From NCBI GenBank assembly GCA_026989035.1, contig JALSKB010000178.1, positions 1 to 46,227 of the forward strand: a DNA stretch of 46,227 nucleotides, written 5' to 3'. The DNA is from Saprospiraceae bacterium. Its GTDB lineage: Bacteria; Bacteroidota; Bacteroidia; Chitinophagales; Saprospiraceae. The position numbers were made by a program, and so were the translations under genes. How positions within the stretch are numbered: the first letter of the stretch is position 1; every line of letters starts with the position of its first letter. Positions 19,858 to 37,327 of this stretch are shown piece after piece. The notes below the pieces were generated by a model that was not told the origin of the DNA, ran no database searches, and saw only the letters and a list, made by a program, of their open reading frames with translations.

Positions 19858-21315
19858 CTATTTTCGCAGAGCCTTATCCCGCACAATGATGGTGTCAATC
19901 TGATTGGTCTTCAGGTTTTTGCCGATCAGTATCCGGTCCGGATTGATGACGTAAATCTCCGGGGTGATGTCCACAAAATACTTTCCGTAAATAGCCCGAT
20001 TGGTCGGGTCATACACGTTCACCCAGGGCATCTTGTTTTTGGCTATGTAATCGACCCACTTTTGGTGATCCGTATCCAAAGCAATGCCAAAAACATCCAC
20101 CTCGGGGTAATGCTCGTGGTAATACTTCACCATCTTCGGGGTTTCTTCAGCACAGTGCTCACAGTCCGGATTGTACATGTAAACGATCAAATAAGGTGCT
20201 TGGAGATCGTAGAGCGAGTACATCTTGCCGTCGGGGCCGGGAGCTGTAACGTTCGGTGCTTTCTCACCCAACAAGCTACCTGCCATTTCTTCCGCCCTTT
20301 GCCGCAAGGCATAAACTTCTACGGAATCCGACCAAAAAGCCTTGTCGTAAGTGAAGTACTTGAGAATCATTTTGGAAAACACCTTCTCCGAATCCATCAT
20401 GTGCGATTCCCGAGGGTCATATTGCAAAACAATCCAATTGGCAAAGTACTTGTAGTACTCCGGATCGTAATTAGGATAGTTCTCCAGGCGATCCATCAAA
20501 GCATAAGCCGCCGTCAAGACGGAATCTCTATGCTGAGGCGTTAATTCCTTGATATAACGCTTGAGCTTGGTTGAGATGACCGGCGTGTACAGCAGGCGCT
20601 TATCGCTAAAATCCACATCATCCCAAAATTTTTGGCGATACAAATAGGCGTACAAAACCTGGTCGATGCTGCCGTCCGGTCCAGGCTCTAAACGAATATC
20701 CGGATTTTGCCCTGCTTTTTTAAATTTGGTGAAAAAGGAATTGGGCCGGCGGGCATAAAGCTCTTCCAAAAAGGCCTCTCGCTTGTCGAGCAAAGCGTAG
20801 CGTTCCTGCAACAATTGCAGATACTCTTTGGAGTTTTTAGGCAGTTCCCGCATTTTGTTGCTGATGCGCGCAAACTTGGCCCGTTGTGAAGCATCAAAGC
20901 GAAACGACTCGTACAACAACTCATTGTCCACACTCCCCTCTACTTGCATCTCGCTCTCAATGCTACCCGGCGTTTTTAACGAGAAAGTCTGATCTTCATC
21001 GACCAGCATTTGGACGATCTTGCGATCCGGAAATTGTACGAACAATAAACCTGCAGGATAAGGCTCCTCTCGCTTGAAGTGCACTCCTCCCTGTTCATTA
21101 ACTTGAGCTGAATCGATGAGATAGTAATTCCCTTCGAAGATACCCAACAAGCGAGCCATACCCGGGCGAATGCCCTGCACTTCCACATAAATATCCGGAG
21201 ATTCTGCTTGGCGATTTGTCGTACTGCCATCACCATGGCCGGAAGAAGAAGCCTGCTGAGAACATGCTCCGAAAGTGAGGAGCACAAAGGCCACAACAAA
21301 GCATAAATACCTCAT
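19858..21315 (-). CDS. TlpA-like thioredoxin-domain lipoprotein
   Basis: A 485-residue lipoprotein from the ATG at 21315 (lipobox ...LTFGAC, lipid Cys about 18). The N-terminal ~100 residues (YVEVQGIRPGMARLLGIFEGNYYLIDSAQVN) fit the DUF4369 domain common in Bacteroidota. A helical middle segment follows, then a C-terminal thioredoxin fold (LGEKAPNVTAPGPDGKMYSLYDL onward) with the redox pair C385-E-H-C388. The cis-proline region is VDITPEIYVINP. It likely acts at the outer or inner membrane as a periplasmic thiol oxidoreductase; its substrate is unknown. A TAnnTTTG box lies at 21337-21344. It is downstream of the GH9-like gene but on its own promoter. Confidence 0.87.
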   Translation of the reverse strand: MRYLCFVVAFVLLTFGACSQQASSSGHGDGSTTNRQAESPDIYVEVQGIRPGMARLLGIFEGNYYLIDSAQVNEQGGVHFKREEPYPAGLLFVQFPDRKIVQMLVDEDQTFSLKTPGSIESEMQVEGSVDNELLYESFRFDASQRAKFARISNKMRELPKNSKEYLQLLQERYALLDKREAFLEELYARRPNSFFTKFKKAGQNPDIRLEPGPDGSIDQVLYAYLYRQKFWDDVDFSDKRLLYTPVISTKLKRYIKELTPQHRDSVLTAAYALMDRLENYPNYDPEYYKYFANWIVLQYDPRESHMMDSEKVFSKMILKYFTYDKAFWSDSVEVYALRQRAEEMAGSLLGEKAPNVTAPGPDGKMYSLYDLQAPYLIVYMYNPDCEHCAEETPKMVKYYHEHYPEVDVFGIALDTDHQKWVDYIAKNKMPWVNVYDPTNRAIYGKYFVDITPEIYVINPDRILIGKNLKTNQIDTIIVRDKALRK

Positions 21316-21336
21316 GACTGTCTGGTTTTGAGACAG

Positions 21337-21344
21337 CAAATATA
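21337..21344 (-). promoter_or_regulatory. -7 element of the TlpA-like gene
   Basis: On the minus strand: TATATTTG, an exact TAnnTTTG match, 22 nt before the ATG at 21315. Confidence 0.5.
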
Positions 21345-21396
21345 GAAAGAGTTGCTTACCGCAATACCTGCCAGAACCAAATACGTCAATTTTTTT

Positions 21397-23541
21397 TTAG
21401 CGAACGACCGAAAGCCACAACCCACCGAGATCTCCGGCTTTGACCCAATAAGAACCGGTGGCCAAATCGGACGGAAGAAGCAGCCTGTTGCCCTCCTTGG
21501 GCAGTTCAGCGACAAAATGCCCGGAAGCATCCAGCAAATACCAATGCTCCGGTGGTAAACTGCTGCCTTTCCATTGGATCAAAACCTCTTGTCGGGCCGG
21601 ATTGGGATAGAGCGCAAAAAGCGATTCGGCAGATCTTCGGTACACTTCTGCCGTTGGCGTGGTAATCAGGGCATCCGCACTGGCAAATTCCGCTAACAAA
21701 CGTACATAGGCCGCCTGGATCTCCAAATCGGCCAGAGAGACAAACCAAGAATTTTCAGGCCAATTGGTATTCCAGTCCAGATAGGACTTCATGGGAGGCT
21801 GAAACTGCGGAGGTGAAATCACGCCCCCGTAAGATTCATCGGGTTCATAGTAGTGATTGGGACCGGAAACGACAAAACCCGGTGCAGGCCCGTAAGGCGA
21901 AGTCTCTGCATTGTCCCAAGGCGTATCGTCGTAAAACCAGTAGTGAAAGATTTCCCTACAGCTGTTCTCCGCCCCATAAGCCGACATGTTGCTCACAAAA
22001 GTCTTGTTCAAAGGATTGAGCCCGTGCAAATAATACAGGTATCGCTGCACGGCCTGCAGATAGGCGCTCGCATAGTTAACCGTATCCATGCCGTATTGCA
22101 AGGCTTGAGCATAAAGACGAGCCGTATTCAATTTTATCAAATTGCTCAACCAGCCGTAATCCGGCACATAGGACAAGTAAGCACAGCTGTCCGACAAAAA
22201 AGCTTGTAGCAAGTCGGTATTGTTCTGTACCATGCTCTCTACAAAGCTTTGGCGAATTTCGGTTTCTACCGAAGGCGTGGGGTCAGGCAAATCCAAATAA
22301 AACAGCAGGGCATCTTGAATAATGCCTTCCCAAGGATACCAGTAATACCAATCCACGGGATTCAAATCGGTATATCGAAGTTCAAAAAAGTTCTTGTACA
22401 GTTGTGATCCTGTGGCGGCATAGAGATATAGAGCTGCCAAAGTGAGAGCTGCTTCTTGTTGATACTCTTCGATTTCCGGATTATCATTATCAAAACCCAC
22501 ATCGTCGTATTGAGAGTAACCCGGATGAGCAGCTACCCAGAACCAGGCAGCTTCTGCCCGAGCAATCAAGGTGTCGGCATAAGTCTGCCATTCGGGCTCC
22601 GGCCGTTCAGAAAACACTACAGCCGCATGAGCCAGCATACTACTGAAACGCCTGGTGGCAGAGCTTTGTGCCGGCCCGTAAAAGCGCTGGTAGATGCCAT
22701 CTGCCGAAGGTGGAGATTCCCCTGCCCAACCGTATTTAGAGACCTTCATCAAAACCTGACCGTCGGGCAACTGCATCTTCATCAACCAATCCAGCTCCCA
22801 CTTCACTTCATCCAAAATATCGGGCAAGCCGTTTCCCGATTCAGGGATACCCACAGCATCGCTCCACAGCTCAGGCTTGCGGCGATATGCCGATAGCAGA
22901 AGATGCACCGGATAAAAAGCGTTATTCACGGTTTTTAAGTAGAAACCACCATCGTGCCATCCTCCTGAAACGTCTTTTTCCAAAGAGATGTCATTCGGTG
23001 CCAGCACAAAGCGGCAAGCCGTATCAGCCAAATGGCATGGCACATCGGCCCAGTTATCACCTGCATAAGCCGCTTCTTTGGCCACGCCGCATCGCTCGTA
23101 GTAAAACGCCTTTAAAGCGGTTTGCAAAATGCCGTCGTAAACCTGAGGAGAAATGTCAAAAACGGCAGAACGAAGGTTTTGCTGTGCATCCAAAAGGTAA
23201 TAACTACCCTCCGTTGTCAAGGAGGAAAAGTCCATGCGCCACACCTTATTGCCCGATTGCGGATCCACTACCCCACCTTGCCAAGCTTGCGGCACACCCG
23301 TAAAAACCACATCACCCGACATGGCATCCACAATTTGAATTTCCGAGGAGGGAACATAGCTCTCTTGTGCATCAAAACCTTCCTGAGGGTCGCTGAACAC
23401 AGCTATTTTCTCGCCTTCCGGCAAATAACCAAACTGATCTACATGGATCAAAGGGCTGAGCAGCTGCCCATAACTGCCTGGAGTTGTCAAAAGCAAACTC
23501 AAGCTCAGCAAAACAGACGTAAAAAGCCCCTGCTGTTTCAT
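21397..23541 (-). CDS. GH9-like secreted protein, apparently without catalytic residues
   Basis: A 714-residue secreted protein: signal peptide (LSLSLLLTTPGSYGQ), CelD_N-like Ig domain (about 30-130, HVDQFGYLPEGEKIAVFS), GH9 (alpha/alpha)6 barrel (about 135-620), and a type IX secretion C-terminal domain starting near ALYPNPARQEVLIQW. GH9 cellulases have a DAGD motif supplying the base; here it reads D197-G-G-F200, so the second Asp is lost. The catalytic Glu expected in the NSWxVTEP-type motif reads NSWFVSLADLE, with Leu603 at the acid position. Fold residues are kept. It may bind glycan without cleaving it. The start is the ATG at 23541, 1 nt after the stop of the OmpA gene, so the two are translationally coupled. 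Confidence 0.85.
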   Translation of the reverse strand: MKQQGLFTSVLLSLSLLLTTPGSYGQLLSPLIHVDQFGYLPEGEKIAVFSDPQEGFDAQESYVPSSEIQIVDAMSGDVVFTGVPQAWQGGVVDPQSGNKVWRMDFSSLTTEGSYYLLDAQQNLRSAVFDISPQVYDGILQTALKAFYYERCGVAKEAAYAGDNWADVPCHLADTACRFVLAPNDISLEKDVSGGWHDGGFYLKTVNNAFYPVHLLLSAYRRKPELWSDAVGIPESGNGLPDILDEVKWELDWLMKMQLPDGQVLMKVSKYGWAGESPPSADGIYQRFYGPAQSSATRRFSSMLAHAAVVFSERPEPEWQTYADTLIARAEAAWFWVAAHPGYSQYDDVGFDNDNPEIEEYQQEAALTLAALYLYAATGSQLYKNFFELRYTDLNPVDWYYWYPWEGIIQDALLFYLDLPDPTPSVETEIRQSFVESMVQNNTDLLQAFLSDSCAYLSYVPDYGWLSNLIKLNTARLYAQALQYGMDTVNYASAYLQAVQRYLYYLHGLNPLNKTFVSNMSAYGAENSCREIFHYWFYDDTPWDNAETSPYGPAPGFVVSGPNHYYEPDESYGGVISPPQFQPPMKSYLDWNTNWPENSWFVSLADLEIQAAYVRLLAEFASADALITTPTAEVYRRSAESLFALYPNPARQEVLIQWKGSSLPPEHWYLLDASGHFVAELPKEGNRLLLPSDLATGSYWVKAGDLGGLWLSVVR

Positions 23542-23542
23542 A

Positions 23543-25618
23543 TCAGTAAAGTTCAAATTCCACTCTGCGATTCAACTCTCGCCCCTGTGGCGTATCGTTC
23601 GTTGCTATGGGATGGGCTTCTCCCTTGCCCTCATAACTCATGCGGGCAGGGTCTATACCCTGAGCAATCAGATAATCATAACAGGAACGAGCGCGTTCTT
23701 CAGACAAAGTCATGTTGTGGGTGGGATCGCCTACATTATCCGTATAACCTACGATGCGAAGTTTGTAATCGGGGTATTTCTTCATGATGGCGGCCACTTT
23801 ATTGAGGATGTTGTAGGACTCCACTTTGAGGGTAGCCTTACCCGTTTCAAACTGTATGGCTTGTGCTGCCAAATCCAGCGTTTCCTTTTCCTCCTTTTTC
23901 AACTCAGGGCAGCCAAAAGTTTCCAGTGGCCCCGCGCTGTTGGGACAGTGGTCATGAGCATCATCAATGCCGTCACCATCGGTATCGGGGCAGCCGTTAA
24001 AAGGACCTGCTTTATCCGGGCAGGGGTCTTTGTCATCAGTCAGGCCATCACCGTCACTATCGGGGCAGCCTTGATTTTTCTCCTCACCGGCTTTATTCGG
24101 ACATTTGTCTTTGCTATCTTCAATGCCGTCGCCATCACTGTCGGGGCAGCCGTTGAATTTTTTCAAACCCGGCTTTAAGGGACACTGGTCATCGGCATTT
24201 TTGATACCGTCGCCATCGCTATCAGGACAACCTCCTGTCGAAGGAGGACCGATTTCCGTAGGGCAAGCATCGTCTTTATCGGCCAGGCCATCACCATCGC
24301 TGTCGGGGCAGCCGTTCAGGTTAATCGGGCCTGCTGTATTCGGACATTGATCCGCCTGGTCCAATACGCCGTCGCCATCGCTGTCTTTGGGCGGGCAACC
24401 GCCCATATCGATGGGGCCGGCTTCATCGGGGCAAGCATCGTCTTTGTCGGCCAGGCCGTCACCATCGCTGTCGGGGCAGCCGTTCAGGTTAATCGGGCCT
24501 GCTGTATTCGGACATTGATCCGCCTGGTCCAATACGCCGTCGCCATCGCTGTCTTTGGGCGGGCAACCGCCCATGTTGATAGGCCCTGCCTCATGGGGAC
24601 ACTTGTCTACGCTATCAATTACGCCATCGCCATCGCTATCAGCCGGACCCTTCTCTTCGGGGCAGCCATCCTTTTCTAAGCTGCCTGCCTGATCCGGACA
24701 ACGATCTTTGTCATCGCTTACGCCATCACCGTCGCTATCAGGACAGCCCGACAAATCAGCCGGACCGGCCAATTCGGGACAGGCATCTTTCTCGTCCGGT
24801 ACGCCGTCGCCATCGCTGTCTGCCATAACTTCTTCCTCGGGACATCCTCCGTGATCGGGCGAGCCCGAAACATCTGGACATTGGTCGTCTTTGTCGGCCA
24901 CGCCATCTCCGTCTCCATCCGGGCAGCCCATGGTTTCGCCCGTTCCGGGCATGTTGGGACATTGGTCAAGTCGATCCACCAAACCGTCACCATCGCTGTC
25001 GGGGCAGCCGAGTAAATTGGCAGGCCCGGCCAGCTCCGGGCACTCGTCTTTTTCGTCCGGCACGCCATCACCATCTGCATCGCTGAGCTGGGGCGCCGAT
25101 TTGAGGGTAAACCAATAGCCCAAGCCCACTTTCAAGTGATTGCGCTGATCGGCTTGCGCCAAACGATATGCCGCCTCTAAATTGAGATAGGAGTCTTTTC
25201 CTATTTGAAAGTTGAAACCCAGGCCAACGGGAAATTCCACAGCCAGGCCCTCAAAATTTTCAGAGACGATTCCTCCCCCAAGTAGAAAATAAGGCGTAAA
25301 AGGAGAAGATTCCTTGTAGTACTGCACCAACAGCAAAGCATCTCCTCCCAGCATGGTTCGCTTATTCATAAAATCCGGCACATTGGCCAGGCCGGCATGC
25401 AGTGGAAAGGCGATGTTTAAAAAGGAATTAATGTTGCGGATATAGGCGACTTCCAAGCCATTGGAAATGGGTAAAGTCTGAAAGTCATACCCCTGGGGTG
25501 TGGCGTAATCCAAAAAGAGCACGCGAGCAGCCAGGGCATGAGGGGTCTCGCCTATTTGAGCATTTGCCGAAAGGCTCAAAAAAAACAAAAGGAACAGCAG
25601 TGTAGTCGTTTTTCTCAT
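23543..25618 (-). CDS. Outer-membrane protein with 14 thrombospondin type 3 repeats and OmpA domain
   Basis: A 691-residue protein from the ATG at 25618. Signal peptide LLFLLFFLSLSANAQ, then a ~170-residue membrane-barrel-like domain (LEVAYIRNINSFLNIAFPL ... LEAAYRLAQADQRNHLKVGLGYWF). Fourteen Ca2+-binding TSP3 repeats follow, each DxDGDG...D.CP..xG...GCP. The C-terminus is an OmpA/MotB peptidoglycan-binding domain (FETGKATLKVESYNIL, VGYTDNVGDPTHN, LSEERARSCYDYL, NRRVEF). It links outer membrane and cell wall, with a calcium-stiffened stalk. Repeats were recently duplicated (168-bp unit). It is followed with 1 nt gap by the GH9-like gene. Confidence 0.93.
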   Translation of the reverse strand: MRKTTTLLFLLFFLSLSANAQIGETPHALAARVLFLDYATPQGYDFQTLPISNGLEVAYIRNINSFLNIAFPLHAGLANVPDFMNKRTMLGGDALLLVQYYKESSPFTPYFLLGGGIVSENFEGLAVEFPVGLGFNFQIGKDSYLNLEAAYRLAQADQRNHLKVGLGYWFTLKSAPQLSDADGDGVPDEKDECPELAGPANLLGCPDSDGDGLVDRLDQCPNMPGTGETMGCPDGDGDGVADKDDQCPDVSGSPDHGGCPEEEVMADSDGDGVPDEKDACPELAGPADLSGCPDSDGDGVSDDKDRCPDQAGSLEKDGCPEEKGPADSDGDGVIDSVDKCPHEAGPINMGGCPPKDSDGDGVLDQADQCPNTAGPINLNGCPDSDGDGLADKDDACPDEAGPIDMGGCPPKDSDGDGVLDQADQCPNTAGPINLNGCPDSDGDGLADKDDACPTEIGPPSTGGCPDSDGDGIKNADDQCPLKPGLKKFNGCPDSDGDGIEDSKDKCPNKAGEEKNQGCPDSDGDGLTDDKDPCPDKAGPFNGCPDTDGDGIDDAHDHCPNSAGPLETFGCPELKKEEKETLDLAAQAIQFETGKATLKVESYNILNKVAAIMKKYPDYKLRIVGYTDNVGDPTHNMTLSEERARSCYDYLIAQGIDPARMSYEGKGEAHPIATNDTPQGRELNRRVEFELY
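24261..24574. repeat. Tandem duplication of a 168-bp unit inside the TSP3 repeats
   Basis: Positions 24261-24406 and 24429-24574 are the same 146 bases with two differences by my reading. The 168-bp offset equals exactly two TSP3 repeats (56 residues). Neighbouring TSP3 copies are much more diverged at the DNA level, so this duplication is recent. Confidence 0.85.
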
Positions 25619-25661
25619 AACAGGTCGTTGTTCGTGGGTAATCGGTTTGGTGTAGTCTGCC

Positions 25662-25669
25662 CAAAGATA
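25662..25669 (-). promoter_or_regulatory. -7 element of the OmpA-GH9 operon
   Basis: On the minus strand: TATCTTTG, an exact TAnnTTTG match, 43 nt before the ATG at 25618. Confidence 0.5.
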
Positions 25670-25720
25670 GGGCTTTTTGTACAACCGCTTTGGAGAAGAC
25701 CGTGCTAAGGGGCCAAAAGG

Positions 25721-26371
25721 TCAAAACTCGCAAGTGGCAATGTGTAAGCCGGGAACGGCTGAATCAAGGTCCAATTCGGCTTCGCGTTTGCCGGCGACCT
25801 GAGCCTTGAAGCGGTGCAAGAGTTCTTGAGTCCGACTGCGAGGCATAGCGAGTACGATCTGTGCTTTTTCCGAGAAATCTTGTTTGACGATCCGCAAATC
25901 GGGCTTTTTGGCGGCCCTCATAACGGCATTCATCAAGGCATAATCAAAATTCACCTCGAAATAAGCTTCCGCCATGCGCTCCACCTTTTCCGCCGCTTCC
26001 AAGGCAGCTGCCGTACTGCCCTTGTAGGCCTGAATCAAGCCCGAAGTACCGAGCAGGGTGCCTCCGAAATAGCGCACCACAACCACCACCACATTCGTCA
26101 ATTGCCATCGATCGATTTGCCCCAGAATGGGGCGCCCCGCCGTACCCGAAGGTTCCCCATCGTCGTTGGCGCGAAAGCGTTCTCCGCCAAATCCCAATCG
26201 CCAGGCAAAACAGTGGTGCCGGGCTTTGGGGTGCTGCTTGCGCACTTCTCTTACCCGCTGCAAAGCCTCTTCTTCCGTCTCAACCGGAAAGGCGTAAGCT
26301 ATAAATTTGCTTCCCCTGTCCCGATATTCACCACTAGCCGGGGCGGCGATGGTTTTGTAGATATCGTCCAT
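25721..26371 (-). CDS. yigZ: YigZ/IMPACT-family protein
   Basis: A 216-residue protein of the UPF0029/IMPACT family. The N-terminal domain contains SKFIAYAFPVETEEEAL, KARHHCFAWRLG and DDGEPSGTAGRPIL, the family's core signature, then VVVVVRYFGGTLLGTSGLIQAY. The C-terminal domain (FDYALMNAVMRAAKK onward) is the DUF1949 half. I place the start at the ATG at 26371; the longer frame adds 40 unrelated residues. The biochemical role is not settled in bacteria; the eukaryotic relative modulates Gcn2-dependent translation control. It is upstream of, and on the same strand as, the OmpA gene, which has its own promoter. Confidence 0.93.
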   Translation of the reverse strand: MDDIYKTIAAPASGEYRDRGSKFIAYAFPVETEEEALQRVREVRKQHPKARHHCFAWRLGFGGERFRANDDGEPSGTAGRPILGQIDRWQLTNVVVVVVRYFGGTLLGTSGLIQAYKGSTAAALEAAEKVERMAEAYFEVNFDYALMNAVMRAAKKPDLRIVKQDFSEKAQIVLAMPRSRTQELLHRFKAQVAGKREAELDLDSAVPGLHIATCEF

Positions 26372-31984: not shown

Positions 31985-34717
31985 ATGAAAATACGATGCC
32001 TTTTTTCGCTTGTATTTTCCCCCCTCTTTTTTTTCTTCATCCACACAAGTTTGGCCCAAACGCACAACTGGCAGCGCACCAATCCCGGCGGAGGCGGTGC
32101 TTTCAGCACCATCGGTGCTTCCGCTTCGGGTATCATCCTCGCCGGTAGTGATTTGAGCGGCGCCTATCGGAGTACCGATGGCGGAAACAGCTGGGATGTC
32201 ATCGGCGCAGACAAGGGCCTGACCGAAACGCATGTCAGTGGTTTGGGTTTCCACAAAACCAATGGAGATATCCTCTACATCGGTACGGATAACGGCATTT
32301 TCCGCAGCGACGATGGTGGAAATTCCGTTACCCAGGTCCTGGTCGGAGGCTACATCACCGATATTGAATTTGGTACGGCTCAGCCCCATATCGGCTATGC
32401 CAGCTACCACCCGACATACAATTCCAACCAGGGCGTCATCTACAAGAGTACCAACAACGGCCTGTCCTGGACACAGGTGAGCACCAACCTGCCCTCAGGC
32501 CTGCGTATTTTAAAGCTCCTGGTTAATCCCAATGATGCCGACATCGTCTATCTGCTCTCCGGCGAAGGTCGCTTTGCCTGCGGACCTGCCGAAGTGTACA
32601 AAAGTACGGATGGCGGTGTTACCTGGACTCACCTGACGGCTTCTCTTTCGGAAATTCTGGACATAGCCCTCAATCCCGACAACCCGAATGAAGTCTTCGT
32701 TACCACCATGAATGCCGATTGCAATGCACCTTATTACTGGACAGACCTCAATGGCGACCTCTACCAAAGCACGGACGGGGGCAACAGCTGGGGCAGCCCC
32801 CTGGCTGCGGGGCGAACCGGTGTTATCTGGATCGACCGCAACAATACCGATATCATCAGGCTCATTGACCCACGCGAACCCTACACCTGGAACCCCGATG
32901 CCGGCACCTGGACTTCCACAGATGGAGGGCAGACCTTTACCCATACGGGCTTCGTCGACAACTGGGATACCTTCTTCAACGGAGACCCGTATTACTGCTA
33001 CGGCTCCAGCTTCAACGGCATCTGCAAAACCTTGGGCGATGATCTGTCTGATCCCGATGTGTTGTACTGGGTTAATATCCAGTGGGTTTTCAAAACCACC
33101 GATGGTGGAAATACCTTTCAAAACCTCATGACCAATGAAGTAGGTACGGATTTCTGGCAAAGCCGTGGTTTTGATAACGTTAATATGATGGACATTTCCA
33201 TCAGCCCCGCCGATGAAAACATCATTTACCTGGCCTACTTCGACATGGGCATTTGGCGCAGCTTGGACGGCGGCCAAAGCTGGCAGAGCTGCAACCACGC
33301 CGACTACACCGGTGATTGGGACGGACGGGGTGGAAATTGCGCCACCGTGCTGGCCGACCCGGACAGGCCTAATGTCGTCTGGGCTACCCTATCCGAAAAC
33401 CAAAATGGTGAACCACCCGTCTATCTCATCAAAAACAACAATACCGGCGAACGCAACAGCTGGATCCAATCCGACAACGGCTTGCCCGATGTGGAAATCA
33501 TGGGATTATCTGTAGATCCCAATAGCCCGACCAACAACCGCACCCTCTACGTAACGGCCAATCGCGACGTCTATCGAAGTGTCGATGACGGGGCCACCTG
33601 GACGAAAATCTTCAATTGCAACGGCTGCCGGTTTACTGCTGTGGACTATTTCGACAGCAACCTCATCTATGCCGGAGGCGAAACAGGCCTGTGGCGCTCT
33701 ACCGACGGAGGTAGCACTTGGACAGACGTCAGCCATTCCGACATGCCCTCTTCCGGAACGGATTTTTGGGACTACAACTACGACGGCATCTTTGACGTCA
33801 AGACCGACCCCAACGTCGCCAATACCGTTTACGTGGCGGTGCATGGTGACGGCAGCAACAAAGGGCTATACAAAAGCACTGACCAGGGCAACAACTGGAC
33901 ACAGGTATTGACCGACCCCTACTTGCGCAAAGTGGCCATCATGCCGCAAAACAGCAGCATCCTATACGCCACCTCTTCCAGTGCCTTCGAAGCCGGAGGT
34001 TACTATCCCGCATCAGGTGGTGTCTTTTTTTCCTATGACAGCGGCTCCTCTTGGGTACAACAAAACCAAAACATGGCCTACCCCTTTGCCCTGGCCGTAG
34101 CTGTGGACCATACCGCCACACCTGAGGTTTTCGTAGGCTCGCCGGGCACCGGCTTTCAACATGCCCCCGTGGATCTCTCTCTGGTCATGGCTGTGGATTA
34201 TCTACAGCCTCTACAGGCCAACCTTGAGGGCGGACAGGTACGGCTGAGCTGGAGTTGCCATAGACAAGAAGGTGCTCAAAACTTTGCGCTACAACGCAGC
34301 CCTGATTTGCAAAACTGGGAGGAAATAGCCCTACTTCCCCTACGGGCAGACGGTCTATATCAGTGGTTGGATGTACCTCCTCGTGCCGGACAGTGGTACT
34401 ATCGCCTCAAACAGAACGATCTGGACGGCAGCTTCTCCTACTCCAACATCGCCTCCGTTAACTTTCGGGGAAAAACCAAGCTACAGCTCTCCCCCAACCC
34501 CTGCCAAGGTGTATTGCAGCTTAAGATCAACAACACACCACCGCAAGTTGCCCATGTCCTCATCAAGGATAGCCTGGGAAAACTCGTTTTTCAACAGAAA
34601 ATTTCCTCCATGGAAACTTCCCTCCAACTCGGGCACCTACTTCCCGGAATCTACACCCTCAGCCTCAGTGGACACGGGCAGGTACTCACAACGGAAAAGC
34701 TGGTGCTGCTCAGGTAG
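31985..34717 (+). CDS. Secreted Asp-box (sortilin/GH74-like) beta-propeller protein with T9SS sorting domain
   Basis: A 910-residue secreted protein. Signal peptide up to HTSLAQ (about residue 24). Then I count about twelve Asp-box-type motifs of the S-x-D-G-G-x-S/T-W kind (YRSTDGGNSW, YKSTDGGVTW, WRSLDGGQSW, WRSTDGGSTW and others), which build the double seven-bladed propeller of VPS10/sortilin and GH74 proteins. The C-terminal 85 residues start LQLSPNPCQGVLQL and end in KLVLLR, a type A T9SS domain. GH74 xyloglucanases share the fold and opening (LSGAYRSTDGGNSW), but I could not identify catalytic aspartates, so the function (glycosidase, adhesin or binding protein) is open. A convergent partner of similar architecture follows. 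Confidence 0.85.
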   Translation: MKIRCLFSLVFSPLFFFFIHTSLAQTHNWQRTNPGGGGAFSTIGASASGIILAGSDLSGAYRSTDGGNSWDVIGADKGLTETHVSGLGFHKTNGDILYIGTDNGIFRSDDGGNSVTQVLVGGYITDIEFGTAQPHIGYASYHPTYNSNQGVIYKSTNNGLSWTQVSTNLPSGLRILKLLVNPNDADIVYLLSGEGRFACGPAEVYKSTDGGVTWTHLTASLSEILDIALNPDNPNEVFVTTMNADCNAPYYWTDLNGDLYQSTDGGNSWGSPLAAGRTGVIWIDRNNTDIIRLIDPREPYTWNPDAGTWTSTDGGQTFTHTGFVDNWDTFFNGDPYYCYGSSFNGICKTLGDDLSDPDVLYWVNIQWVFKTTDGGNTFQNLMTNEVGTDFWQSRGFDNVNMMDISISPADENIIYLAYFDMGIWRSLDGGQSWQSCNHADYTGDWDGRGGNCATVLADPDRPNVVWATLSENQNGEPPVYLIKNNNTGERNSWIQSDNGLPDVEIMGLSVDPNSPTNNRTLYVTANRDVYRSVDDGATWTKIFNCNGCRFTAVDYFDSNLIYAGGETGLWRSTDGGSTWTDVSHSDMPSSGTDFWDYNYDGIFDVKTDPNVANTVYVAVHGDGSNKGLYKSTDQGNNWTQVLTDPYLRKVAIMPQNSSILYATSSSAFEAGGYYPASGGVFFSYDSGSSWVQQNQNMAYPFALAVAVDHTATPEVFVGSPGTGFQHAPVDLSLVMAVDYLQPLQANLEGGQVRLSWSCHRQEGAQNFALQRSPDLQNWEEIALLPLRADGLYQWLDVPPRAGQWYYRLKQNDLDGSFSYSNIASVNFRGKTKLQLSPNPCQGVLQLKINNTPPQVAHVLIKDSLGKLVFQQKISSMETSLQLGHLLPGIYTLSLSGHGQVLTTEKLVLLR

Positions 34718-34762: not shown

Positions 34763-37327
34763 TCATCGCTCAATCACAAAAGGCAAAACACTTTGCCTGC
34801 CCTGTTCATCGTAGAGCTGGGCGTAGTACATGCCGGAAGACAGGTCCAGCTCTACCTCCAGGCTTTCATTTGGCGAAAGCCTAAGCGCCGTGCGAGCCTG
34901 CACCACCCTGCCTCGGGCATCGCAGATCTGCCAACTGCCCCGGAACGCCTTACCACCGCGCCACTGTAGAGAAAAATGCCCGTTCGAGGGATTGGGAAAA
35001 CAGCGAAAAGACTCCTTGAGGGAAGTCGCTTCAGCAGCAGCAGTAATCACGCTCAACAGGTTTCCCTCATAAACCCCGTTTCCATGGGTAGCTATGCGCA
35101 GTTTTTCCGCTGGCAGAGAAGCTGCAACATCCATGACTAAAACTCCACTAGGTAGGCCATCCATATACGGCTCCCAGCTCGCTCCTCCATCTGTCGAGGC
35201 AAAAACGCCTAAATCGTTGCCCACATAGAGGATTTCGGTATCGAAGGGGTCAAATAGAATGCTGTTGGTCGGTACGTCCGGCAGGCCGGCATCGGAAGGG
35301 AACCAGCTAGCACCTCCGTCTTCCGTTTTATAGACGTGGGGCGTACCAAAGCCACTAAAAACGACAAAAGCCACATCGGGGTCTGCGTGAGACAGGGCAA
35401 AATCCATGGCCATGCGATCGGGCAAGCCACTGACAGGCTGCCAAGTGGCTCCTCCATCGGTACTTCGACGCACATAAGCCGATGATAAATCGTAATAGTT
35501 GACCAGGCTGAGCAAGATGAGGTTAGCGTTTAGCGGGGATAGGCCAATGCGAAAAATCGGCGTTTGATCATCGACCACGTGCTCTGCACCGGTGGCTTCC
35601 CAGTTTTCGCCCCGATCGGTTGAATAATACAAGCGCGAAGAGCCTGCGTACAAAGCTCCCGGAAGCTGAGGTGCCAATTCAAAAGCTCCACTAAAGGCCC
35701 GAAGCTCCTGATCGGCATCCGGTGGCCTGATGAAAGTATTGAAATTCAACCCGTCATCAGCCCTGACCAAGTAGAGAAACTGGGCTGAGGCGTACATGAT
35801 GTCGTCGTCTGTGGGATCTATAGCCGCACTCATGCCGTCTCCTCCCACAACGCGCGTCCAGGCATCCTCACCGGTGTAAATGGCCGTAGCATTGTCTTGC
35901 ATACCTCCAATGGCCAAATCTGCACTCAGCATGGAATTGCCAAAATTGGCATAAAACTGCTGGGTCTGGTAAAAACCATTGCGCCCCTCCCAAGTCAATC
36001 CCGCATCTCCAGAGTAAAAAATCCCTCCATCGGTGGCGGCAAAAACTTCATTGGGGTTGTCAGGCTGAAAGTAAAGGGCATGGACATCAGCATGCACGTA
36101 ATTGGAAGGGCCTTCGGGGCCACCCACCGGCACCTGCCCGAAGTACCAAGCCGACCAATCGCCAACCTGGCTGGATGTAAGTCCTCCATCCGTAGATAAA
36201 AAGGTGTTTACCCCTGCGAAAACCAGATGATCGGGATTGTCGGGCTTTACGGCTACATCATGGGAGTACCAGCCCTGATAAGTGGCATAATTCAGATCCG
36301 TCATTTGTGTCCAGCTGTCACCACCATCCACAGAGCGATACAGTCCCTTACCTGAAAAATCATCGGCAACAGAGGCATAAAGGACAGAAGGATTAGAGGG
36401 AGAAATGGCCAAGAGCGTTTTCCCCGTGTAATTTGTCGGCAATCCGTTATCCAACAGCTCAAAAGTCTGACCGCCGTCCGAGCTTCGGAAAACCCCGGAG
36501 ACAGGGCTGTTGAAATTGCCAAAGCTGACGTACAACTTACCGGTATCCGCCGGGCTCATTTCAATGTCAATGGCCATATCGGGATCAAAGATTTTCTCCC
36601 AGCTAGCCCCTGCATCGTAGGAGCGATACAGTCCTTTTGTAGTTGCAGCGAAGACCGTTTCCGGCCGCTGGGGGTTGATGAGTATATCCTGCACACCGGT
36701 CATTTCATCCAAGTCCCAATCCAGACTTTTGCTCCAGGTCTGGCCTCCATCTGTCGTCTTGAGGATGCCGATTCCATAAGTGCCTCGCGTAATACGGTTG
36801 ATGACGCCGGGCGATGCTGCTTCGTAATTGTACACCTCTCCGGTGCCGATGTACATCTCGTCGGGGTTTAAAGGATTGATGGCTATGGCCGGCACACCGA
36901 TAAGGGGAAAGCCCGTTTCAACGCGTTCCCAGGCCTGCACGCCCTGGCCTGCCGTGTTGCTCTTCCACAAGCCACCACCGGCCGATCCGGCATAGATGAT
37001 GTCGGGATTCTGGGGGTGAAAAGCCAGGCAAAGCGTGCGGCCGCCGATGTTCTTCGGGCCTATGGCCTGCCAGTCGGCAGAGGGCAAAGAGCGCACCGAC
37101 AAGCGGCTTTGGAGCTTCTCCTGTGCGCTCTCCCAACGCTTAACAGGGATGCGTTTTCCCGGATAAGCCCGAAAAGCACTCCACTGCAACAGCGACCACT
37201 CCGCTCCGCTAAATCGCTGTTCAGAGGCCCTGACTCGGTCTTCCGACAAAGCGGATGGCTTCTGCTTTTGACAAGAAAGAGAGAGCAAAACAAGAAAAAT
37301 GTAGAGAATGTACCAGCGGGCAAACAT
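34763..37327 (-). CDS. Asp-box (sortilin-like) propeller protein with lipoprotein-type signal and T9SS domain
   Basis: An 854-residue protein. The N-terminus (LYIFLVLLSLSCQKQK) looks like a Bacteroidota lipoprotein signal with Cys near residue 19. After a linker come propeller repeats with Asp boxes (ILKTTDGGQTW, YRSYDAGASW, FRSSDGGQTF, YRSVDGGDSW, RRSTDGGATW, YKTEDGGASW and others) and the opening WQAIGPKNIGGRTLCLAFHP typical of VPS10-like exo-proteins in this phylum. The C-terminus begins FRCFPNPSNGHFSLQW, a T9SS sorting domain. Having both a lipobox and a sorting domain is uncommon. No enzymatic residues could be assigned. One copy of the iterated word lies at 34868-34879. Confidence 0.83.
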   Translation of the reverse strand: MFARWYILYIFLVLLSLSCQKQKPSALSEDRVRASEQRFSGAEWSLLQWSAFRAYPGKRIPVKRWESAQEKLQSRLSVRSLPSADWQAIGPKNIGGRTLCLAFHPQNPDIIYAGSAGGGLWKSNTAGQGVQAWERVETGFPLIGVPAIAINPLNPDEMYIGTGEVYNYEAASPGVINRITRGTYGIGILKTTDGGQTWSKSLDWDLDEMTGVQDILINPQRPETVFAATTKGLYRSYDAGASWEKIFDPDMAIDIEMSPADTGKLYVSFGNFNSPVSGVFRSSDGGQTFELLDNGLPTNYTGKTLLAISPSNPSVLYASVADDFSGKGLYRSVDGGDSWTQMTDLNYATYQGWYSHDVAVKPDNPDHLVFAGVNTFLSTDGGLTSSQVGDWSAWYFGQVPVGGPEGPSNYVHADVHALYFQPDNPNEVFAATDGGIFYSGDAGLTWEGRNGFYQTQQFYANFGNSMLSADLAIGGMQDNATAIYTGEDAWTRVVGGDGMSAAIDPTDDDIMYASAQFLYLVRADDGLNFNTFIRPPDADQELRAFSGAFELAPQLPGALYAGSSRLYYSTDRGENWEATGAEHVVDDQTPIFRIGLSPLNANLILLSLVNYYDLSSAYVRRSTDGGATWQPVSGLPDRMAMDFALSHADPDVAFVVFSGFGTPHVYKTEDGGASWFPSDAGLPDVPTNSILFDPFDTEILYVGNDLGVFASTDGGASWEPYMDGLPSGVLVMDVAASLPAEKLRIATHGNGVYEGNLLSVITAAAEATSLKESFRCFPNPSNGHFSLQWRGGKAFRGSWQICDARGRVVQARTALRLSPNESLEVELDLSSGMYYAQLYDEQGRQSVLPFVIER

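Follow-up and report, generated by a model that had tools for sequence, protein, structure and literature searches.

The question posed by this locus is whether a protein that belongs by homology to the GH9 cellulases, and whose sequence has changed at both catalytic positions, still functions as a hydrolase and, if it does not, what it may have become. The window, a stretch of 46,227 nucleotides from a Saprospiraceae genome, carries the gene on its minus strand (21397..23541, including the stop), with an ATG at 23541, a TAA stop at 21397-21399 and a product of 714 aa. Membership of GH9 is clear from the match to PF00759 (E 1.9e-51), which reaches 176.2 bits against a cut-off of 27.7, and Pfam also detected a CelD_N domain (E 5.5e-16); the barrel and Ig domain of the preliminary description are therefore both present. 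From the N-terminus, with all coordinates on the minus strand, the protein consists of a probable Sec signal peptide recognised by eye in the sequence (residues 1-25; 23467..23541), the CelD_N Ig-like domain found by Pfam (residues 30-116; 23194..23454), a GH9 (alpha/alpha)6 barrel identified by Pfam and by fold comparison (residues 135-597 as the Pfam match; 21751..23139) and a C-terminal beta-rich domain, with seven predicted strands, that is probably a T9SS type A sorting domain (residues 642-714; 21400..21618).

The first catalytic motif reads GGWHDGGFY (residues 193-201) and aligns without a gap to GGWHDAGDY in the Cel9 structure 3x17 and to KGWHDAGDY in CelD. In this alignment to solved GH9 proteins the first Asp of DAGD is retained as Asp197 and Phe200 occupies the position of the catalytic base, in line with the first reading of the degenerate DAGD as D-G-G-F (D197 G198 G199 F200; 22942..22953, minus strand). 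The second motif, NSWFVSLADLE (597-607), stands where many relatives have NSWEITEPAIY, and it was placed by means of a profile of 20 sequences, namely the window protein, its orthologue in a congener and 18 relatives. The degenerate acid motif SWFVSLADLE (residues 598-607; 21721..21750, minus strand) then maps on to SYETNEPAI in 3x17 and SYQTNEIAI in CelD, the CelD part of the mapping being a separate short stretch that has no significance of its own, and Leu603 falls at the position of the acid, again in agreement with the first reading of the sequence. In CelD the triad presumably corresponds to Asp198, Asp201 and Glu555. The triad of cellulase E4 is given as Asp55, Asp58 (established as the base by azide rescue) and Glu424, and the profile mapping on CelD and 3x17 fits it (PMC4071793). 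Of the residues expected in an active inverting GH9, the window protein thus lacks the base Asp and the acid Glu and retains the first Asp of DAGD (D197). The idea that the catalytic residues are simply placed elsewhere was rejected, as both motifs align gap-free to 3x17 and CelD and neither species' protein contains DAGD.

A predicted structure agrees with the family assignment. An AlphaFold2 model of the window protein built from 20 sequences has a mean pLDDT of 70.4 and a pTM of 0.73; its top Foldseek match is 3x17 (E 2.0e-22), and alignment to CelD (4cj0) with VIA-align gives a Z of 30.0 over 502 residues with an rmsd of 3.8, so that comparison with CelD bears out a GH9 fold for the model. 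The catalytic loops of the model are unreliable, with pLDDT below 50 at residues 198-202, 532-539, 541-543, 559-579 and 588-603. The C-terminal catalytic loops are also poor in a model of a relative with an intact triad (L050) made from the same 20 sequences, so the shallow alignment must account for at least some of the low confidence there; in the DAGD segment the window protein has blocks of 44 and 50, compared with 69 and 73 in that relative.

Whether the loss is peculiar to this protein was assessed against a broad set of relatives. These were drawn from a search of 398 genomes belonging to the family, of which 119 gave a match at E 1e-60 (the place G425:C236 was left out), from 100 near-relative genomes (44 with a match at E 1e-3) and from 19 named loci that include the congener, the three sources overlapping. 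The 180 ORF hits at a phmmer E of <=1e-40, a threshold that leaves distant GH9 proteins outside, were merged by identical core to 147 rows, with the three loci L003, L032 and L091, which are one contig of the congener, counted once; removal of the window protein, the congener and their partial copies (L117 and L118) left 143. The catalytic residues were Asp/Asp/Glu in 137 of these and Asn/Asp/Glu in one, whilst five were truncated with their visible catalytic residues intact. All 138 of the 138 that cover the three catalytic positions have Asp at 200 and Glu at 603, and no catalytic loss was found in other genera among the 143. In the aligned columns these relatives share 30-45% identity with the window protein. 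A wider alignment with 88 other rows contained 74 DDE, 11 DD-gap, one NDE, one gap-gap-E and one DDQ, the last being a very divergent sequence (L070) whose alignment is unsure. One relative (L074, from genome G330) has NAGD for DAGD, with Asn at the equivalent of 197, the sole such change among the complete relatives compared.

Amongst all the sequences compared, base and acid have both been lost in two proteins only, that of the window and that of the congener. The nearest named record is the congener itself (G001; Saprospiraceae MAG JALVES010000023.1), 71% identical in the best segment, and its orthologue, approximately 70% identical, has the motifs WHGSDVY and SWYVSLVDLE. The two species thus agree in having Leu at the acid position but differ at the base, with Phe in the window protein and Val in the congener, and the first Asp of DAGD is kept only in the window protein and is Gly in the congener. 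An error of sequencing or assembly is disfavoured, since the MAG of another species carries the same loss. A third genome of the genus, G002, yielded no GH9 domain match, but this genome, listed as 82% complete, is uninformative because its 4963-nt contig ends inside the redoxin gene (match to 4962) that adjoins the expected GH9 site. Judged from these alignments, and as far as examined, the loss of base and acid appears confined to one genus.

A quick maximum-likelihood tree of 80 rows, from which the motif columns were left out, places the window protein and the congener in one clade (SH-aLRT 100) with a stem of 0.81. The clade is nested in a 17-row group (SH-aLRT 93) whose other members retain the acid Glu and the base Asp. 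The stem is the longest in the 73-row subfamily, but others reach 0.76 and it is not exceptional. Two other features of the tree and its members deserve mention in their own right: records L046 and L047 (Flavobacteriaceae) each contain two adjoining GH9 ORFs of this subfamily, and the GH9 proteins of L038 and L040, which are labelled Paenibacillus, group with the Bacteroidota subfamily, either through mislabelled bins or through gene transfer. Along the stem of this Saprospiraceae genus, a GH9 ancestor with the intact triad would have had its base (Asp to Phe or Val) and its acid (Glu to Leu) replaced, and the folded protein would then have been retained.

An important consideration is whether the gene is being maintained at all. 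The reading frame is open over its full length in both species, and between them dN is 0.234 at a dS of 2.9, which is near saturation, so that omega is not accurate. The corresponding dN values for the neighbouring genes are 0.214 (OmpA-TSP3), 0.227 (redoxin), 0.247 (YigZ), 0.062 (PLP-dependent synthase) and 0.396 (LysM), and the GH9 gene is maintained, since its dN resembles theirs whilst its dS is near saturation. A dying gene on its way to becoming a pseudogene would explain a catalytic loss in a genome where few of the searched glucanase families are represented, but full-length open frames in two species that are 70% identical, a dN like that of the neighbours and the retention in both proteins of 69 of 81 near-invariant columns make this very improbable, and it is disfavoured here. 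With catalytic residues lost, and fold and frame apparently kept under selection, the protein has the properties of a pseudoenzyme. The earlier suggestion of a pseudo-cellulase holds in so far as base and acid are replaced in both members of the genus and the gene is maintained, and it is very probable, judging by its sequence, that the protein is no longer a classical GH9 hydrolase.

The pattern of conservation in the remainder of the protein is informative. Among 81 columns conserved at >=95% in 70 relatives, nine are lost in the window protein and 11 in the congener; eight of the 81 are lost in both (D98, Q172, A198, D200, Y204, G465, G559 and E603), and the 69 retained in both include W464, H506, H533, W535, F536, Y587 and W599. 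When single relatives were left out in turn, the median loss was one of about 80 near-invariant columns and the maximum nine of 83, the latter in L046 (2112-5777), which keeps its triad. A high count of losses is therefore in itself no mark of a dead enzyme; the count here falls at the upper end of the range, and what tells is where in the alignment the losses lie. At 80% conservation 9 of 18 columns in the catalytic segments are lost, compared with 13 of 145 outside them (Fisher p 6.5e-5), and the same enrichment is seen at 90% and 95% conservation (p 0.005 and 0.015, respectively), with the proviso that the segments (195-207 and 596-612) were chosen after the motifs were known and that columns are not independent.

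These losses have to be set against the possibility that catalysis has been moved rather than abandoned. The protein might still be a hydrolase, or might be a new enzyme, if D605 and E607, just past the old acid, together with another carboxylate had replaced the lost pair. The changes A605D and Y607E, two of the twelve Asp/Glu gains that the species share (A275E and S566E are others), are common to the window protein and the congener, each of the resulting residues occurs in <=3% of relatives, and the last barrel helix is predicted to begin at 603 in the model. However, the base position is hydrophobic in both species; no carboxylate of the DAGD segment lies at the same place in both; and E600 and Y204 have been lost together with the acid. 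Replaced catalysis is consequently improbable. A slightly more doubtful variant is that the pocket has been rebuilt, a hydrophobic base and acid position and the new Asp605/Glu607 pair serving a different glycan reaction or accommodating a ligand not usual for GH9.

The reading that we prefer, by a narrow balance of probability, is a lineage-specific non-hydrolytic GH9 that is exported through the Sec and type IX systems and whose cleft binds glycans without cutting them. Glycan binding taken by itself stands at about even odds. The aromatic and His columns that have been kept fit glycan binding at the old cleft, and we infer a binding role from them, but the retained residues may serve folding only. 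A serious rival, although less probable, is that the protein is non-hydrolytic without being a lectin, the barrel acting as an exported scaffold, an adhesin body or a protein-binding partner whilst the cleft drifts. This would account for the difference between Phe and Val at the base, and between D197 and Gly, as expected of a relaxed site, and for the change in both species of G465 to Leu and G559 to Ser, which may alter the cleft. The surroundings, which hold YigZ, OmpA-TSP3, redoxin, PLP-dependent synthase and LysM genes and are no polysaccharide locus, would suit it too, and there is a precedent in the mutated hydrolase GH26B, considered below, which bound none of the glycans tried. Against it stands the retention in both species of the near-invariant W464, H533, W535 and W599. 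On the preferred reading of a non-hydrolytic glycan binder, the cleft would hold beta-glucan-like or other glycans uncut and the protein would act as an adhesin or capture protein.

The export route assumed in that reading depends on the C-terminal tail, which the preliminary description had called an intact T9SS signal. The best match of the last 90 residues is to TIGR04183 (E 2.3e-4), but its 21.1 bits fall below the curated cut-off of 23, and PF18962 gives 21.8 bits against a cut-off of 27; for the congener the scores are 21.1 bits, likewise under the cut-off, and 13.9 bits. As a sorting domain the tail is thus probable, its scores in both profiles falling short of the cut-offs. In the window genome (G000; 3.1 Mb) there are 101 matches to TIGR04183 at E 0.001, 96 of them over the cut-off, and the GH9 tail is absent from this list. 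Export of the GH9 protein by T9SS is likely, and after passage through the Sec and type IX systems the protein would be displayed on, or released from, the surface. Elsewhere in the window two large Sortilin/Vps10-type propeller proteins (31985-34717 on the plus strand and 34763-37327 on the minus strand) are encoded tail to tail with a spacing of about 45 nt, and the T9SS tail of each passes the cut-off.

The gene immediately upstream (23543..25684, minus strand) encodes, by Pfam, a protein with an N-terminal region presumed to be a barrel, TSP3 repeats and a C-terminal OmpA domain. Its ORF ends at 23543 and the GH9 ATG lies at 23541 on the same strand, which confirms the gap of 1 nt noted at the outset. 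In the congener the two genes also adjoin on one strand with a gap of 64 nt, and both species have the gene order YigZ, OmpA-TSP3, GH9, redoxin, PLP-dependent synthase and LysM; in the congener the interval from redoxin to the PLP-dependent synthase is longer by about 1.3 kb. It had been proposed that the GH9 protein is coupled to an OmpA-TSP3 porin, and the two might form one surface complex, an idea compatible with any of the other readings. The genes are on the same strand, 1 nt apart and probably co-transcribed here, and they adjoin in both species; against this, the whole surrounding gene order is conserved, 64 nt separate the two genes in the congener, and the OmpA protein has relatives in many genomes with no GH9 beside them. 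A complex is thus unlikely, and the coupling is reduced to an adjacency in two congeners inside a conserved block. Relatives of the OmpA N-terminal region were found in 55 of 100 genomes, but in a comparison by eye of the contigs of these 100 genomes such a relative occurred on one contig with a GH9 only in G000 and G001. Amongst 110 loci, in many of which the flanking sequence extends to only some 1.5 kb, the congener locus alone contained an OmpA N-terminal relative, and no GH9 was present near such relatives in 14 stretches of 7-14 kb. In one of these stretches (L129) YigZ adjoins the OmpA gene with no GH9 in the stretch, and a YigZ-OmpA neighbourhood therefore exists without GH9. An OmpA C-terminal domain does lie at a distance of about 4 kb from an intact GH9 gene of another genome (G194; L101, 2092-3426, E 9.9e-13), in a protein without a match to the N-terminal region of the window OmpA-TSP3 protein.

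The two further attributes given to this neighbour also fared poorly. No barrel or porin family was detected by Pfam in this protein at E 0.001. In OprF-like proteins the region between the N-terminal part and the OmpA domain is a periplasmic linker, and the TSP3 repeats are likewise internal, following the N-terminal region and preceding the C-terminal OmpA domain; a periplasmic linker is suggested by this position, and a calcium stalk at the surface is doubtful. A promoter and terminator scan of 21250-25800 revealed no promoter-like site on the minus strand; its two sites were both on the plus strand and fewer than in shuffled sequences, and the scan is uninformative for Bacteroidota. A 652-codon open frame (L032, 3975-5930, minus strand) runs antisense to the OmpA-TSP3 gene of the congener and is probably a by-product of the repeats.

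In the genome as a whole (3.12 Mb, 215 contigs) PF00759 matches no protein other than this GH9, GH5 (PF00150) has no match in the genome, GH3 has one, and SusD has one partial match on another contig (C208); the GH9 gene itself, with its YigZ, OmpA-TSP3, redoxin, PLP-dependent synthase and LysM neighbours, lies outside any PUL. As its only GH9 is apparently dead, the four families searched give little indication that this organism breaks down cellulose. The genome combines 101 T9SS sorting-domain matches with a scarcity of matches to those glycan-related families that were searched. A family-based annotation would make the protein a cellulase and, there being no other GH9 in the genome, would imply that the organism degrades cellulose. 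The protein has probably lost the ability to cut, and it may bind sugars or serve otherwise at the cell surface. It also provides a clean test case for a glucanase turning to another function, since the loss, among the sequences examined, maps to a single branch and many close relatives keep the triad.

Comparison with known systems begins with the Ig-domain GH9 proteins CelD (1clc/4cj0), the metagenomic Cel9 (3x17), BoGH9A (6dht) and CbhA (1ut9), which have the same fold of Ig domain and barrel; the window model aligns to them with Z 27.4-30.0 over 498-519 residues at 24-28% identity. Unlike them, the window protein has its base and acid replaced and carries a probable C-terminal T9SS tail. 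The closest relatives with an intact triad, from Saprospiraceae and other Bacteroidota (L004, L005 and L050; 49%, 48% and 39% identical), belong to a subfamily that shares most of the near-invariant columns but keeps DAGD and the acid Glu, and whose activity is predicted from the family. The GH18 chitinase-like lectins are dead hydrolases turned glycan binders, and serve as a model for how such a protein might work only, their fold and hosts being unrelated. The same sort of case is known in another GH family: in GH26B of Segatella copri both catalytic residues are mutated and further genomes share the mutations, the protein was inactive on beta-mannosides and bound none of the glycans tried, and its authors speculate on a role as a binding protein (PMC12704710). 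GH26B resembles the window protein as a GH homologue of Bacteroidota that is predicted to face the surface and has conserved mutations at both catalytic residues; it differs in its GH family and in being PUL-encoded, whereas the window GH9 lies outside a PUL. The negative binding results with GH26B lowered our confidence in glycan binding by the window protein. No inactive GH9 was described among the literature matches listed, which consist of titles and the starts of abstracts and mostly leave the subscription literature outside. In an earlier family alignment, it was observed that the GH9 triad is not invariant, perhaps reflecting a sporadic loss of catalysis with a binding role maintained (PMC4071793), and the window protein is a concrete candidate for the loss suggested there.
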